DNA of 64,000 bases from the NCBI GenBank assembly GCA_035627955.1, contig DASPKU010000019.1, forward strand, positions 310,001 through 374,000, in the 5' to 3' direction. A model generated the notes under the pieces. That model had not been told where the DNA came from, searched no databases, and was given only the letters and a program-made list of their open reading frames with translations. Shown piece after piece: positions 24,375 through 51,647 of the stretch (its first letter is position 1; every line of letters begins with the position of its first letter). The DNA is from Phycisphaerales bacterium (lineage in GTDB: Bacteria > Planctomycetota > Phycisphaerae > Phycisphaerales > UBA1924). The position numbers and the translations under genes are program-made.

Positions 24375-24414
24375 GCGGGGGTGCGGGGGTGCGGGGGTGC
24401 GGGGGTGCGGGGGT
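24375..24414. repeat. Five tandem copies of GCGGGGGT
   Basis: Five perfect 8-bp copies lie between yajQ and the next gene, about 105 bp before its start. With five G-runs on the + strand the segment could form a G-quadruplex in DNA or RNA. Perfect short repeats of this kind also vary in number by slippage. Confidence 0.9.
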
Positions 24415-24520
24415 GGCGGCTGGTCGGCACGCCGGTGCACTTCAGCGGTGCCGCCGGCAACCGGACGCGGCCCCCGCACGTACCGGGCAGCGGCCCTGGA
24501 ACCGGGGCATACTGGAGTTG

Positions 24521-34826: not shown

Positions 34827-35522
34827 TCAGGCCGCGAGCTTCCCGCCCGTCAGCCCGGTGATGGCGAGGTTGCCCCCGCCGTCGACGCCGAACTGCAGGG
34901 TGAAGGGCGTGCTGGCGTCGCCCTGGCTGGCCCCGCGCTGGGCGGTGACCTGGTACACGGCCCCGCCGCTGGCGCTGGGGATGCTGGCGTCGGTGAAGTT
35001 GCGGGCCGCCGTCACGCCCACCTGCGACCACACCTGCGAGTTCAGCAACCGGCGGCGGATGATGTACACGGTGCCCGTGCTGCCCGGCGGGTTCTTGCAC
35101 TGCCAGGAGATCTTCACCGAGCCGTCGGGGTTGAGCGTGGCCCGGAAGGTGTCGGGCGTGCCCGGGGGAGGCATCTGCGAGGGGTTCTGCGGCGGGATCA
35201 GCTGGCTGGCGTCCCAAACGGCCTGCGGGTTGGCCGAGGCCGCGGCGAAGGCGTCGATGGCCGCGACCGTCGCGGTCATGGTGGTGTTCATGATGCGGAA
35301 CTTGGCGCTGGCCTTGGCCGACGCCACCTTCAGCTGGTCCTTGAGCGACTGCACCTCGAGCATGGCGTCGTTGAAGTCGGTCACGGCGGTGACGTAGTTG
35401 GTCACCATCGTGGGCGACAACCCGATGCTGGCGCCCCCCGTCTGGAACGGAGTCTGGTGGGCGAGGGCGAAGTTGAGGGCGTCGAGGCGGGGGGCACGGA
35501 CGATGCGCTGCACTTTCGACAT
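34827..35522 (-). CDS. Helical plus fibronectin III-like protein (member A of a pair)
   Basis: 231 aa, no signal peptide or membrane segment. Residues about 35-105 are Ala-rich helices (VTDFNDAMLEVQSLKDQLKV, ATVAAIDAFAAAS). A proline hinge (LIPPQNPSQMPPPGTPD) leads to an FnIII-like domain of about 95 residues (VKISWQCKN, GTVYIIRRRL, NFTDASIP, VYQVTAQRG). The gene at 45115-45807 has the same length and plan. Function unknown. Its upstream DNA is the 21/42-bp repeat array at 35745-35975; downstream are two terminators, so it is monocistronic. Confidence 0.75.
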   Translation of the reverse strand: MSKVQRIVRAPRLDALNFALAHQTPFQTGGASIGLSPTMVTNYVTAVTDFNDAMLEVQSLKDQLKVASAKASAKFRIMNTTMTATVAAIDAFAAASANPQAVWDASQLIPPQNPSQMPPPGTPDTFRATLNPDGSVKISWQCKNPPGSTGTVYIIRRRLLNSQVWSQVGVTAARNFTDASIPSASGGAVYQVTAQRGASQGDASTPFTLQFGVDGGGNLAITGLTGGKLAA

Positions 35523-35744: not shown

Positions 35745-35975
35745 CGCCAGAACGCACCCGTGTTCCGCCAGAACGCACCCACTTTGTGCGCCAGCGCGGC
35801 CACTTTTTGCCAAAGAACGGCCGCGCCGCCGCGGAGCACGGCCACTCTTTGCCAAAGAACGGCCGCGCTGCGGCGGAGCACGGCCACTCTTTGCCAAAAA
35901 ACGGCCGCGCTGCGGCGGAGCACGGCCACTCTTTGCCAGAAAACGGCCGCGCTCCGCCGCGGTTGCCGGCCTTGA
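35745..35975. repeat. 21/42-bp tandem array upstream of member A
   Basis: Eleven consecutive 21-bp units fill this stretch. The central part is 42-bp copies built of TGCCAAAGAACGGCCGCG and CGGAGCACGGCCACTCTT halves, and the first two units both begin CGCCAGAACGCACCC. CTTTGCCAAAG or a one-base variant recurs with 42-bp spacing (centres near 35810, 35852, 35894 and 35936). The units are contiguous, so this is not a CRISPR. All frames stay open because 42 is a multiple of 3; no frame is convincing. The rest of the 538-bp gap (35523-36061) shows only GC-rich sequence. Confidence 0.88.
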
Positions 35976-36061
35976 GGGGACGCGTTCGGCCTCACTGGTG
36001 TCGGTCAGGTTGCACCAGGGCGCGAGTTGCGTCCTACCGACACCTGGGCGAAGCCTCCCAA

Positions 36062-37415: not shown

Positions 37416-37428
37416 GGCGGAGGGTAGG

Positions 37429-37553
37429 GGATGTCGGATGTCGGACGTCGGATGTGGGATGTGGGATGTGGGATGTGGGATGTGGGATGTCGGATGTGGG
37501 AATGCGGGAGGTGGTCCTCTCTGACATCCGACATCCGACATCCGACATCCCCT
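37429..37553. repeat. Inverted repeat made of short tandem words (GGATGTCGG / GGATGTG)
   Basis: From 37430 the + strand repeats GGATGTCGGATGTCGG and then GGATGTG several times. At 37522-37550 the inverse words GACATCCGACATCC recur four times. The arms can pair over about 25-30 bp with variable register. The element fills the gap between the truD stop and the CusF-like start. Confidence 0.88.
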
Positions 37554-45114: not shown

Positions 45115-45807
45115 CTACGCCGCCAGCGGCATGGTAGAGGCCTGCTGCACGCGCACGCTCGCGCGCAGCGGCATGCTCCACGGCCCCAGCGTGCCGCGGG
45201 GGCCGATCCAGCGGGCGAAGTAGGTGGTGCTCCAGCCCGGGGGCGCGGGCGGCGCGTCCACGGTCTTGCGCGTCAGCGTCATCACGGTCACCGGCTCGGC
45301 CCCCGCGGGGCTTTCGGCCCGTTGCGGCGCGACGGTGCGGCACAGCAGCAGGCCCATCGCGCCTTCGGGGCGGGCCCGCCCGGTGCCCGGCGGCCTCAGC
45401 ACGCGGATGGTGTGCTGCAGGCCGGTGTCGTCCATCAGGAACAGCTGCGGCCAGTCCTCGATCGCCCGCCGCCTCGGGAAGGCGTGGGGCGGAGGGATCA
45501 GGCCCAGGCTGATCAGCTGCGCGGGCGTGACGCTGGCGTTGGCCCGCACCAGCCCCGCCAGCCGGCGCAGCACCGCCGTGCAGGCCTTCCGCTGCTCCCT
45601 CTTGTTGAGCACGTCGATGCTGGTGCGCGAGTTCCTGTTGCTCGCTCTGCTCCATGCGGCGGCCCAGGCGTCCGCCGCCGCCACCATCGCGAGCGCGTCC
45701 TCCGCCGTGAGCCCGTACACCCCCGGCGCGGCCACCACCAGCGTGCGGAAGTTCCGCACAAACCCGTCGAACTCCGCGTCACGGTTGGGGATGAAGGGTG
45801 CGGACAT
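45115..45807 (-). CDS. Helical plus fibronectin III-like protein (member B of a pair)
   Basis: 230 aa from ATG 45807. It has the same plan as the gene at 34827-35522: N-terminal Ala-rich helices (DALAMVAAADAWAAAWSRAS, CTAVLRRLAGLVRANAS), a Pro-containing hinge (LGLIPPPHAFPRR) and an FnIII-like C-terminal domain (TIRVLRPPG, GLLLCRTV, VTVMTLTRKT, YFARWIGPRGTLGPWSMP). Sequence identity with member A is low, so the link is by architecture, length and an unusual 21-bp-phased array upstream. No signal peptide. Function unknown. Confidence 0.72.
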   Translation of the reverse strand: MSAPFIPNRDAEFDGFVRNFRTLVVAAPGVYGLTAEDALAMVAAADAWAAAWSRASNRNSRTSIDVLNKREQRKACTAVLRRLAGLVRANASVTPAQLISLGLIPPPHAFPRRRAIEDWPQLFLMDDTGLQHTIRVLRPPGTGRARPEGAMGLLLCRTVAPQRAESPAGAEPVTVMTLTRKTVDAPPAPPGWSTTYFARWIGPRGTLGPWSMPLRASVRVQQASTMPLAA

Positions 45808-45914
45808 GCTGCCTCGCGCGTAGGTGGTGGAGACGGGCGCTGCGCGGCCATCAACGCGCACGCCACCCTGCTGCACCCCTTGTTTCGGCACGTACACACA
45901 GGGCCTGAAGGGAA

Positions 45915-46094
45915 AAACCACGGTTTATGCACTGTGCACCTGGGCGGCAGCCTCGCAGAACCGCTGCGCGCGCTCAGAAACCGCGGTTGATGGAGTCCGC
46001 ACACGGGTCAGCAGCGCAGAAACCGCGGTTTTTCGATGTCACGCGCGGGCGGGCGACGCCCACACGGCTGTCTGCGCCGCATAAACCGCGGTTT
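45915..46094. repeat. Four AAACCGCGGTTT palindromes phased in steps of 21 bp, upstream of member B
   Basis: Sites at 45915-45926 (one base changed), 45978-45989 (last base changed), 46020-46031 and 46083-46094. Centre-to-centre distances are 63, 42 and 63 bp, all multiples of 21, so the sites face the same side of the helix. The DNA between them also shows weak 21-bp similarity (CCGTGT or CGCG at the same phase). Perfect even palindromes suggest dimeric protein binding. The 525-bp gap 45808-46332 holds this array, a dispersed repeat at 46194-46275, and nothing else recognised. Confidence 0.85.
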
Positions 46095-46193
46095 CTGAGC
46101 GTGCGCAGCGCGTGCAGAGACTTCGCACGTGCGCCGCGTGGTCTCTCGCTCTGACGCCGGTTGCTCGCGCGCCCTTCGCTGCGCCCGTTCCGC

Positions 46194-46275
46194 GGGTGCA
46201 AAAGGGGCTGCCGCCACTCTTGCGACTCCCTGCTGAAGGCAAGACGCTTGCGCGCTCGGCGGGCGCGGTGCGCAC
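46194..46275. repeat. Dispersed repeat, copy 1
   Basis: GGTGCAAAAGGGGCTGCCGC, then ACTCTTGCGACTCCCTGCTG and AAGGCAAG, followed by a GC-rich stretch ending in GGTGCGCAC. Copies 2 and 3 are at 47598-47650 and 48038-48125. The core can fold as AGGGGC/GCCCCT (imperfect in this copy). It lies after the gene at 46333 on the minus strand. Confidence 0.85.
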
Positions 46276-46332
46276 GCAGAGGCCCGGAGAGCCCGAGAGG
46301 GGCGGCCTTAAAACCCCTCTCGGTTGCGCGGC

Positions 46333-47052
46333 TCACGACGCGGGCGCGGGCCTGGGGCGCGGGGCCAGCCCGCACTCGGGGCAGGGCGCGGTTTCAGCAA
46401 GGCCCTTGCGGTCGTAGGCGCAGGTGGGGCAGAGGCCGTTGCTGCGCCGCAGGTGCCGCACCCACCAGCGCCACGCCTCGTGCAGGGCGAAGAAGACGGG
46501 GCTGTAGAGGATGGCGTTGAGGAGGAGGCCGGGCCAGAGGATGAGGTAGGGGAGCGGCATCTTCACCACATCCCTGATGAGTCCGAAGAACATGACGCGC
46601 GGGGTGGCGTCCTCGGCGTACGTGGTGGCCCCCTTGACGCAGTGCATGGGCCAACCGGACACGTAAACGCCCATGCTGCGCGTGATGTCGGGCGACGGCG
46701 GGGTCAGATGTTCACGCCGCTTGCGGATCTCGGCGACCGCCCAGGAGGGGGCTTCGGTAAGAGCGCCAATCACTCCTCCGTCCGGCGTCGGTATGGCGGC
46801 TCTTCTCTCGACCTCGCGCAGCATCAATGCGGCATTATCAAAACCTTGAATGTGGCAGCCGGCGTTGGTTGCGGAGCGGTCCGCGATGATGTAAAGGTGC
46901 AGGCCCTCGATGCTGACGGGCCCTTCTGTGAATTCGCGGCCGTCGGCGCTGACGTTGGAAATCGCCACCCACGCCACCACCACGCCCGCCACCGCCCCCA
47001 GCAGCACGTAGCACGCCCACGCCGCCGCGTGCTTCTTCCAGCGCGTCCGCAT
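46333..47052 (-). CDS. Membrane protein with C-terminal zinc ribbon (copy 2)
   Basis: 239 aa from ATG 47052, the same length as the protein at 36062-36781. An N-terminal helix (ACYVLLGAVAGVVVAWVAIS) and a second one (LPYLILWPGLLLNAILYSPV) flank a soluble domain with two Cys. The zinc ribbon reads CPTCAYDRKGLAETAPCPECG. Function unknown. It is divergent from the small membrane protein gene at 47129, with 76 bp between. Confidence 0.72.
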   Translation of the reverse strand: MRTRWKKHAAAWACYVLLGAVAGVVVAWVAISNVSADGREFTEGPVSIEGLHLYIIADRSATNAGCHIQGFDNAALMLREVERRAAIPTPDGGVIGALTEAPSWAVAEIRKRREHLTPPSPDITRSMGVYVSGWPMHCVKGATTYAEDATPRVMFFGLIRDVVKMPLPYLILWPGLLLNAILYSPVFFALHEAWRWWVRHLRRSNGLCPTCAYDRKGLAETAPCPECGLAPRPRPAPAS

Positions 47053-49077: not shown

Positions 49078-49956
49078 TTACACCTTGCGGTCCAGCAATC
49101 GGTACGAAACGGCCTCGGAGACGTGGTGGGTCGCGAGCGTGGGGGCGCCCTCGAGGTCGGCGATGGTGCGGGCGACGCGCCGGACCTTGTCGTAGGCCCG
49201 GGCGGAGAGACCGAGTTCCGTGAGGGCCTGGCCCAGCATCTCGTGCGCGGCCTGGTCCATGGGCGCAAGGGTGTCGAGCTGCTTGCCGGAGAGGCGGGCG
49301 TTGGGGGTGGTGGCGCCCTGGCGGGCGTGCTGGGCGGCGCGGGCGCGTTCCACCTGCTCTTTCATCTGCGCGGTTGTGGTGCCAGGCTTGGTCGGCTTGG
49401 CGTGCTGCGTGCCCGCGGTGAGCTCCTTCCACGGCACCGCGGGGGCCTCGACGTGGATGTCGATGCGGTCCAGCAGCGGGCCGCTGAGGCGGGCCATGTA
49501 CCGCTCCATCTCGCGCTTGCCCGCCTCGCCGGGCGAGAGGTCGCCCTTGGGCGTCGGGTTCATGGCCGCGATGAGCATGAAGTTGGCGGGGAAGCGCACG
49601 GCCGAGTGCGAGCGGGCGATGGTGACGACGTGGTCCTCCATGGGCTGCCTTAAACCCTCGAGCACGTCGCGGGGGAACTCGGCGAGCTCGTCGAGGAACA
49701 GGACCCCTCTGTGCGACAAGGAGATCTCGCCCGGCCGCGGCACGACGCCGCCGCCGACGATGGCCGCGGAGCTGGCGGTGTGGTGGGGCGAGCGGACGGG
49801 GCGGGTGGCGATGAGACCCTGCCCGGGGTTGAGCTGGCCCGCGGCCGAGTAGATGCGCGTGATCTCGATCGCCTCCTCGGGCGTGAGCGGCGGCAGCACG
49901 CCCGGCAGCGCCTTGGCCATCATGGTCTTGCCGCTGCCGGGGGGGCCGAGCATGAG
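49078..49956 (-). pseudogene. comM: 3' part of comM (yifB), cut by the island
   Basis: The remaining frame begins at LMLGPPGSGKTMMAKALPG, the Walker A loop. It continues through GVLFLDELAEF (Walker B), IAAMNPTPKGD and the Mg-chelatase C-terminal region LSARAYDKVRRVARTIADLEG to a normal stop. About 290 residues of the usual 500-510 are left; the N-terminal Lon-protease-like domain is missing. ComM is a hexameric helicase aiding branch migration in natural transformation. The codons upstream (TLGPGS) are not ComM and belong to the inserted element. Without the 5' half or a start signal it is probably not functional. Confidence 0.85.
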
Positions 49957-51605
49957 GGAACCCGGACCAAGTGTCCGACGCGGGTGCGATCTGCCGAGTC
50001 TGGCAGTTGGGCCGAGTTCAAAGGCGTTGTAGCCGACTGTCCGCAACGGTTCGGCTCTGTTTGAGCGTGGGGGCCCTCAACAGCCTTGGGCAAGGACAAT
50101 GCAAACGTCACCCGGCTCACTCCCCACGTACGCACAGAACCCCCTAAGACCCGCCCCCGCATGTCCCGGCCGAGCTTGTTCCCGGTCCGGACTGCCTCGA
50201 CATCCACGCGCCGAACGATGGTTCGGAGCACCGCCCGTTTCTGGTCTCCTGAGAGTCTCGTGCGGCCTGCAAGGACGGTTTGGACGGCCTTGACGACGCG
50301 AGTGGACTGACTGGTGTCCATGGTGGCTGCTTTGCCCCGGAGAGCCTCCAGCTCACGATCGTGGGCCGCGATGCCTTCCTTGGTCTGCTTCGTTTTCGCC
50401 AGGAACTCGTCCTTGGTGATCTCGCCGTCGGCCCTCATTTCTAGCAGCCGATCGAGCCGCCGCCTGCCCCTGCCGATCTGGTCGTTGAGGTGGTCGATCT
50501 CTTGCAGCACCGCCTGTCGTTGGTAGGGGTCCGCAGCGGCTGCCAGCAGCCGCTCAACGAACTCCGCAGAAGTGGCCAGTGACGCGAAGGCGTCCCAAAC
50601 TGCACCGTCCACGGTCTCCGCGTCCAACCACGGGCACCCCTTTACCCCTTTGGGTGCTCGGTAGAGCCTACACCCTCGCCCAACGTCCCCCTCGTACTTG
50701 TGGTTGTCCACGTAGAGCAGCCCTGAGAGCATCCTCGGGACCGCTGTTCGCGGCAGCTTAGGCCGAGCCCGAACCGCGTCCCAAACTTCGCGGGTGACAA
50801 TGGCGGGGTATGCGTTCTCCCGGATGATCGCTTTCTGGTTGTTGGGGTCGAACCGGAAACCTCGCGTGCCCTTGCCGCTGACCCAGACATTGCTGGCGCA
50901 GGTCCCGATGTAGGCGGGATTATCAAGAGCGCGGCGGACGCTAGTCTTGCCCCATTGGCCTCCCCGGGGTGACACAAGTCCCAACCGATTCAGTTCAACG
51001 GCTACCGAGCGATCCCCCCGCCCCTCAGCGCTCAGCTTGAATAGGCGTCGGATGGTTGCGGCCTCGGCCTCCACGATGACCAGCGTGCCTCGTCCCGGTT
51101 CGCCTGGGTGCGGGTTTCTGAAGCCGAAGGGGGCTGGCCCTGAACTCTTGCGTCCCTGCTCGGCCCTCTGGCGCTTACCCCGCAGCATTCGTTCCTTGAT
51201 CCGCTCAGACTCGGCCCTATCCACGACACCCTGAATCCCGACCATGAACCGCTCGTCGATGCTGGAGAGGTCGCGGACAGTGCCATTGATCAGGATCTTG
51301 AGTCCTCGTTCCTTGAGCTCCCGCATCAGCAGGGCGACCTCTAGCTCATCCCCGCGTGTCAGGCGGCTCTGCTCGTGCACGTAAATCGCATCCAGGGTGT
51401 GTTCGCGGATGAACCCCAGCACCTGCTGAAGCACACGGCGGTCGCTTGCTGCCTGGGTTGCCGACTCCGCACCTTTGAACGTGGCAGCGGTTGTCCACCC
51501 CGACTTGCTGGCGTGCTCCGCATAGACGCGCTCCTGCGCTTCCAGCGACGCCCCTTGGTCCGCCTGCCGCTCGGTGCTCACTCTAAACAGGGCTACGACC
51601 TTCAT
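49920..51605 (-). CDS. Large serine recombinase (site-specific integrase of the island)
   Basis: About 561 aa from ATG 51605, with AGAGG 6 bp upstream; an ATG two codons earlier lacks spacing. The resolvase domain has VVALFRVSTERQADQGASLE with the catalytic Ser in RVSTERQ, and ESERIKERMLRGKRQRAEQG at the end of the catalytic domain. A recombinase domain (RRLFKLSAEGRGDRSVAVEL) and a coiled-coil region (LNDQIGRGRRRLDRLLEMRA) follow. The zinc-ribbon region (MLSGLLYVDNHKYEGDVGRG) lacks the CxxC pairs expected there. The last codons read into the comM remnant in another frame, so the original 3' end may have changed on integration. Confidence 0.9.
   Translation of the reverse strand: MKVVALFRVSTERQADQGASLEAQERVYAEHASKSGWTTAATFKGAESATQAASDRRVLQQVLGFIREHTLDAIYVHEQSRLTRGDELEVALLMRELKERGLKILINGTVRDLSSIDERFMVGIQGVVDRAESERIKERMLRGKRQRAEQGRKSSGPAPFGFRNPHPGEPGRGTLVIVEAEAATIRRLFKLSAEGRGDRSVAVELNRLGLVSPRGGQWGKTSVRRALDNPAYIGTCASNVWVSGKGTRGFRFDPNNQKAIIRENAYPAIVTREVWDAVRARPKLPRTAVPRMLSGLLYVDNHKYEGDVGRGCRLYRAPKGVKGCPWLDAETVDGAVWDAFASLATSAEFVERLLAAAADPYQRQAVLQEIDHLNDQIGRGRRRLDRLLEMRADGEITKDEFLAKTKQTKEGIAAHDRELEALRGKAATMDTSQSTRVVKAVQTVLAGRTRLSGDQKRAVLRTIVRRVDVEAVRTGNKLGRDMRGRVLGGSVRTWGVSRVTFALSLPKAVEGPHAQTEPNRCGQSATTPLNSAQLPDSADRTRVGHLVRVPSCSAPPAAARP
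49950..50006. other. Island/comM junction, probable attachment site half
   Basis: On the minus strand, island DNA ends at about GGTCCGGGTTCCCTCATGCT, after which the comM codons LMLGPPGSGKT begin. The crossover therefore lies within a few bases of 49953-49962. On the island side there is a small stem CTGCC/GGCAG (49991-50006). Serine integrases recombine at short sites next to their own gene, which fits. The other half-site is not in the window. Confidence 0.65.
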
Positions 51606-51647
51606 GGTCATCCTCTCACGCCGGCACCTTGCCGGCGTGCGTCACAC

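Follow-up and report, generated by a model that had tools for sequence, protein, structure and literature searches.

Analysis of the window, the whole 64,000-nucleotide stretch of DNA, revealed an array of nine 21-bp units (45915..46103) located 5' of a minus-strand gene (45118..45807). Comparison with related loci revealed arrays of the same period next to members of two gene families across phyla, with dyad symmetry and with motifs private to each gene. We consider it probable that these are multi-dimer operator arrays placed around a promoter and read from a single face of the helix by a putative dimeric protein.

The first-pass annotation had described four palindromes in helical phase, and this was borne out by a pattern scan of the window, which revealed four copies of AAACCNCGGTTK starting at 45915, 45978, 46020 and 46083, with start-to-start spacings of 63, 42 and 63 bp. 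The first strong site (45915..45926, AAACCACGGTTT) is a central-base variant and the second (45978..45989) reads AAACCGCGGTTG; the third (46020..46031) and fourth (46083..46094), found in scans of both the window and the genome, read AAACCGCGGTTT. With up to two mismatches allowed, AAACCNCGGTTK matched five times in the 64-kb window against 1.31 matches expected, and none of 100 shuffled sequences gave five. The autocorrelation proposed for 45808-46332 was highest at lag 63 (0.364; 0.49 in the core 220 bp), raised at lag 42 (0.329; 0.376 in the core) and weak at lag 21 (0.321; 0.327 in the core). The weak 21-bp register claimed for the DNA between the sites proved to be real, and this DNA was itself palindromic. 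At the array phase, the mean 12-mer palindromicity was 3.67 of 6 pairs, whereas the remaining 20 phases gave 1.2-2.2. Among the five intervening units, the scores were 3, 3, 3, 4 and 4 of 6 pairs: two units lie between sites 1 and 2 (45936..45977, 3/6 each), one between sites 2 and 3 (45999..46019, 3/6) and two between sites 3 and 4 (46041..46082, 4/6 each). Because these units were palindromic at that phase and at no other, the four annotated sites belong to a single array of nine units, as defined by layout, autocorrelation and palindromicity by phase. Sites 2 and 4 with their flanks also form a 31-nt inverted repeat with 94% complementary arms (45962-45992 and 46080-46110).

The array sits between the 3' end of one minus-strand gene (46333-47049) and the start of the next (45118-45807), and it is therefore upstream of the latter. 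Adjoining it, at 46167-46332, is a copy of a repeat scattered through intergenic DNA, of which the genome has more than 20 partial copies at approximately 80-95% identity. A strong inverted repeat, CCGAGAGGGG...CCCCTCTCGG (46293-46323), lies right after the gene ending at 46333 and is possibly the terminator of that gene. Elsewhere in the window, we observed a 7-bp tandem repeat (GGGATGT, 12 copies, 37428-37514), an 8-bp tandem repeat (GCGGGGGT, 5 copies, 24375-24415), and an overlap between a serine recombinase gene and the 5' portion of a ComM/YifB-like Mg-chelatase gene (49078-51611), as if by insertion of a mobile element.

In the 4,264,806-bp genome, the exact 12-mer was present solely as the two array copies at 46020 and 46083. 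Six one-mismatch sites occurred elsewhere as scattered singles, at about the level of a reversed-pattern control, and a genome search revealed no other strong match to the array DNA. The genome-wide search suggested by the first-pass annotation thus yielded a palindrome private to one gene and no genome-wide site; with its exact copies confined to the array, the 12-mer is not a genome-shared palindrome of the REP/BIME type. The suggested measurement of pairwise distances supported the register, since pairs of like palindromes across the genome numbered 3.22 per spacing at multiples of 21 bp, compared with 0.11 at spacings not divisible by 3 and 1.02 at other multiples of 3.

The gene 3' of the array (stop codon 45115-45117) encodes a 230-aa product ending in LAA. 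It had been described as being of unknown function, and indeed no Pfam or NCBIfam family matched it. An AlphaFold model based on 46 homologues (pLDDT 92.8) comprised a bundle of helices (residues 10-100) followed by a beta domain (about 113-221), which structural comparison identified as an FN3 domain (VIA-align Z 11.2, rmsd 2.3-2.4 over 91-93 residues; Foldseek E 3e-5). Folded by itself, the N-terminal bundle had no Foldseek match with an E value below 0.9. Its best VIA likenesses, to an alpha-catenin complex (Z 8.8) and to the S23/four-helix-bundle family (Z 7.3), were dropped as lying within helical-bundle noise. No DNA-binding fold was recognised in the product, as its C-terminal half is FN3 and its N-terminal bundle gave middling matches. 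Additionally, isoelectric points ranged from 4.4 to 11.3, which argues against the product itself contacting DNA directly. PADLOC models of known anti-phage defence matched none of four proteins, and the window protein matched nothing among 72,556 plasmid and 50,697 phage records; in a viral collection, four contigs encode relatives of one subfamily.

To compare upstream regions, we used 52 homologues in relatives and 79 loci from named genomes, the latter mostly from Phycisphaerae but also from Acidobacteria, Armatimonadota, Chloroflexi and Bacteroidetes. A single-sequence contig search with the window protein found no relative, and a 46-row alignment held no stretch conserved enough for scanning; the 79 loci were reached with a nine-row subfamily alignment. 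Nearly all of these genomes were assembled from metagenomes, and such assemblies can collapse tandem repeats. The spacing was kept in relatives, as the first-pass annotation had expected, while the sequence of the sites differed. In particular, a scan for repeated palindromes found GGACCGCGGTCC at spacings of 63, 21, 63 and 21 5' of a same-genome paralogue (C1:418454), and GGAGACGTCTCC at spacings of 21, 21, 42 and 21 upstream of a homologue in a related genome. Averaged over 60-odd upstream regions, the autocorrelation z peaked only at lags 21, 42, 63, 84, 105 and 126, with values from 2.93 down to 1.27, the next lag reaching 0.38. The mean best six-unit identity was 0.54 at period 21 and 0.33-0.37 at periods 18-20 and 22-24. 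Tandem Repeats Finder concurred, for instance at locus L204 (2787-2955, period 21, 8 copies, 91% matches).

Thresholds, here as throughout, were set during inspection of the data. Of the 45 complete loci, 34 carried a strong array in the first 400 bp upstream, and any other period from 17 to 25 gave at most one; the loci are related by descent, and the counts are therefore not independent. Arrays elsewhere in these 45 loci were four continuations of the upstream array and one at -1517. At locus L145, a second array with a near-identical motif lies approximately 1.5 kb 5' of the gene and may derive from a tandem copy. The array was not at a constant distance from the start codon, loci L150 and L155 differing by about 105 bp. 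Period-21 arrays with differing sequences were found for homologues in Planctomycetota, Acidobacteria, Armatimonadota, Chloroflexi and Bacteroidetes, those of Bacteroidetes being AT-rich and non-coding in appearance. One subfamily (MPVPLFPPRKD...) had a period of 20, and another, of 219 aa (MADYIPGPD...), was without arrays, so that the array appears dispensable for some members.

A second array in the window (35790..35980, period 21/42 bp) lies 5' of a gene of a second family (34827..35522, minus strand), whose 231-aa product has a helical N-terminus and an FN3-like part and ends in KLAA. Helices, an FN3-like part and a C-terminal Ala-Ala make up the general layout of this family, which had 25 matches in the same genome and 46 in a relative, G022. 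Period 21 was the best upstream period for 12 of the 13 members fetched from the same genome and for 27 of 39 in G022. In PHROGs, the FN3-like part gave one weak match (E 3e-4) to a Hoc-like head decoration family. Among array-adjacent Planctomycetota proteins, the Ala-Ala end was present in 46 of 52 of the first family, even past variable tails, and in the second family in 12 of 13 in the same genome and 14 of 39 in G022; members from Bacteroidetes ended differently. This end resembles an ssrA-like C-degron.

We also counted arrays regardless of the adjoining gene, filtering against periods 18 and 24, two periods that are likewise raised in coding sequence. In 1.26 Mb of the genome, non-codon-like arrays numbered 14 at period 21, with seven other periods giving none; at a lower threshold in 2.07 Mb, there were 26 at period 21, some of them coding heptads or 7-bp microsatellites, compared with a total of two at periods 17, 19, 20, 22, 23 and 25. 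By our estimate, approximately nine of the 26 precede a gene of one or other family, where the length of the upstream regions would predict about 0.15. Several others adjoin unrelated genes, which were named by eye: an SMC-like gene (L223, 14837-15040), an MreB-like gene (L215, 11327-11515), an SDR-like gene (L248, 5480-5760) and an RRM/KaiC-like pair (L247, 8200-8450). Hence, the arrays are not exclusive to the two families. Two arrays 85 kb apart on one contig (L244 2812 and L247 8291), neither adjoining a gene of either helix+FN3 family, have a common motif about GTTCAAGnnTTGGCGCG.

Dyad symmetry was significant at p<0.05 in 41 of 63 arrays and at p<0.01 in 26. Compensatory changes across the dyad were not in excess (13 seen, 17.8 expected), and the symmetry therefore looks like that of protein-read half-sites and not of base pairing. 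The repeats of paralogues within one genome were mutually unlike, whereas those of close orthologues were alike. Within G022, motif similarity did not follow protein identity (Mantel r -0.01), except that the two best motif pairs were also close paralogues; across genomes the correlation was r 0.28 (p 0.001), a value confounded by descent. As paralogues of one genome lack this correlation, coevolution is unable to name the binder. In this genome, the motif ACAACSGTTGT is common to an array preceding a second-family gene and an array preceding a different gene.

In one clade, TGAAG-N15-GCCGATG or a one-base variant was present in 23 of 84 upstream regions. It occupies the spacer parts of two successive gene-proximal units, in register with the array, and stays constant while the palindromic part varies among loci. 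Varying the gap between TGAAG and GCCGATG gave 24 matches at the matching gap and 0-3 at others. Most array units lie 5' of this element and some 3' of it, and the element recurred in four metagenome contigs of the viral collection. The element resembles a promoter placed within the array. The upstream region of the window gene contained neither TGAAG-N15-GCCGATG nor a sigma-70-like match.

We infer from these features that protein binds to the arrays, does so cooperatively and affects transcription. In the proposed mechanism, a putative dimeric, sequence-specific protein would occupy successive 21-bp units; because 21 bp correspond to two helical turns, all dimers would lie on the same face of the DNA, and neighbouring dimers would stabilise one another along the array. 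The bound protein would then govern the promoter of the neighbouring helix+FN3 gene; repression or gating would be the most likely mode, because the promoter-like element of the one clade lies within the last units and in register. Since the unit sequence is particular to each gene, each array would have its own reader or its own reading specificity. The simplest candidate with matching diversity may be the gene product itself, and autoregulation by this product is possible, but this is a guess. Two features expected of an operator were found: several like dyad sites near a putative promoter, although no promoter-like element was seen for the window gene, and spacing by whole helical turns, period 21 being the best among 18-24 in 75 of 102 loci and one subfamily having period 20. 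Points that weigh against the operator reading are the lack of a recognised DNA-binding fold in the product, the missing promoter-like element at the window gene, the array-free subfamily, the arrays beside unrelated genes and the variable distance to the start codon. The first-pass annotation had left open an operator or an architectural site; the multi-dimer operator is the better reading of the two, and the gene-specific sequence of the array makes a general architectural protein less likely.

We weighed the operator reading against several alternatives, of which a neutral minisatellite, with functionless arrays arising from slippage or duplication, is unlikely. The fast turnover of the repeats, with paralogues differing, the apparent gain and loss of whole 21-bp units and the presence of some arrays near unrelated genes would all be consistent with it; slippage, however, has no period preference, yet the lower-threshold count fell almost wholly at 21, and it would account neither for a linkage to one gene family that holds across phyla nor for the over-represented dyads. 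Static curvature is less likely again: any repeat of two helical turns would bend DNA in one plane, so that the period alone would matter, which would account for a conserved period with unconserved sequence. In a dinucleotide wedge model with approximate parameters, however, the arrays showed no greater curvature than tandem arrays with permuted columns (mean percentile 0.55), and curvature explains neither the dyad symmetry nor the sharing of motifs by close orthologues. It is also improbable, to a slightly greater degree, that the repeats are transcribed and act in RNA as a ladder of small leader hairpins. The units are palindromic, some lie 3' of the promoter-like element and sites 2 and 4 are able to pair, but the majority of units lie 5' of that element, a loopless 12-bp palindrome makes a poor hairpin, the window held no Rfam match, and the lack of an excess of compensatory changes described above does not suggest base pairing.

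The private motif of each paralogue and the dozens of dispersed paralogues per genome would also suit an address at which a site-specific nuclease, recombinase or partition-like protein recognises the gene, with private motifs preventing cross-reaction between paralogues; iterons and centromere-like sites, too, typically consist of repeat arrays. We hold this to be distinctly unlikely, ranking it just behind the minisatellite, as an unsystematic look at the inspected loci noticed no recombinase, replication or partition gene beside the arrays, and one clade has a promoter-like element incorporated in the array itself. As regards a replication initiator beside the window array, the product encoded there is a helical bundle with FN3 that matched no Pfam or NCBIfam family, although a fold search is of limited reach. 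Finally, 21 bp equal seven codons, and a period arising from coding of heptads (coiled coils) would fit some period-21 matches in the genome that are coding (SerRS-like, L224 14736) and an array of the C6 paralogue that overlaps a heptad-like reading frame. Such an artefact is highly improbable for the arrays as a whole, given that the genome-wide counts were filtered against periods 18 and 24, that the AT-rich Bacteroidetes arrays are apparently non-coding and that palindromes are features of DNA.

Returning to the operator reading, we found no published description of such arrays among open-licence PMC papers, and the results point to a control region of an undescribed kind. Should the arrays be operators, two uncharacterised multi-phylum families would have one control layout in which the period is fixed and the sequence is free. 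They would then provide a natural set of orthogonal DNA-protein pairs, dozens per genome, of use in studying the divergence of recognition specificity and in constructing insulated switches, as well as an experimental handle on proteins without a family name. A broader and rather doubtful proposal is a system spanning phyla, in which period and dyads are conserved and the recognised sequence is private to each gene. In large families, every helix+FN3 paralogue would read a 21-bp array of its own, so that one cell would contain dozens of mutually insulated autoregulatory switches, with recognition by a fold not known to bind DNA.

The arrays were compared with known systems and were found to be similar to several in part. 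Plasmid iterons, bound by Rep, are tandem sites of approximately two helix turns with gene-specific sequence, next to the gene of a possible binder, and the arrays are alike in all of these respects. However, iterons are direct repeats at replication origins, whereas the units here are mostly dyads; the genes here lie on chromosomes, each genome having dozens of paralogues, and the product showed no Rep-like fold in the searches made. Arrays of the parC/ParR type consist of short phased repeats over a promoter, with cooperative binding and autoregulation. The arrays described here are likewise phased and, in the one clade with a promoter-like element, appear to overlap a promoter, but their period is 21 bp and not 10-12 bp, no ParM-like partner gene was noticed and no ribbon-helix-helix protein was found. 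Archaeal Borg tandem repeats are similarly intergenic and fast-evolving; they sit on extrachromosomal elements, and the parts of that report considered here describe no fixed 21-bp period tied to a gene family (PMC9879509). The operators of autoregulated toxin-antitoxin and similar systems are also palindromes around a gene's own promoter, although these number one to few, compared with approximately 6-10 units in a strict 21-bp register here, where a single gene without a PADLOC match is present. REP and BIME elements are, like the arrays, palindromic repeats in bacterial intergenic regions; whereas REPs have one sequence throughout a genome, the sequence here is private to each gene and the period alone is shared.
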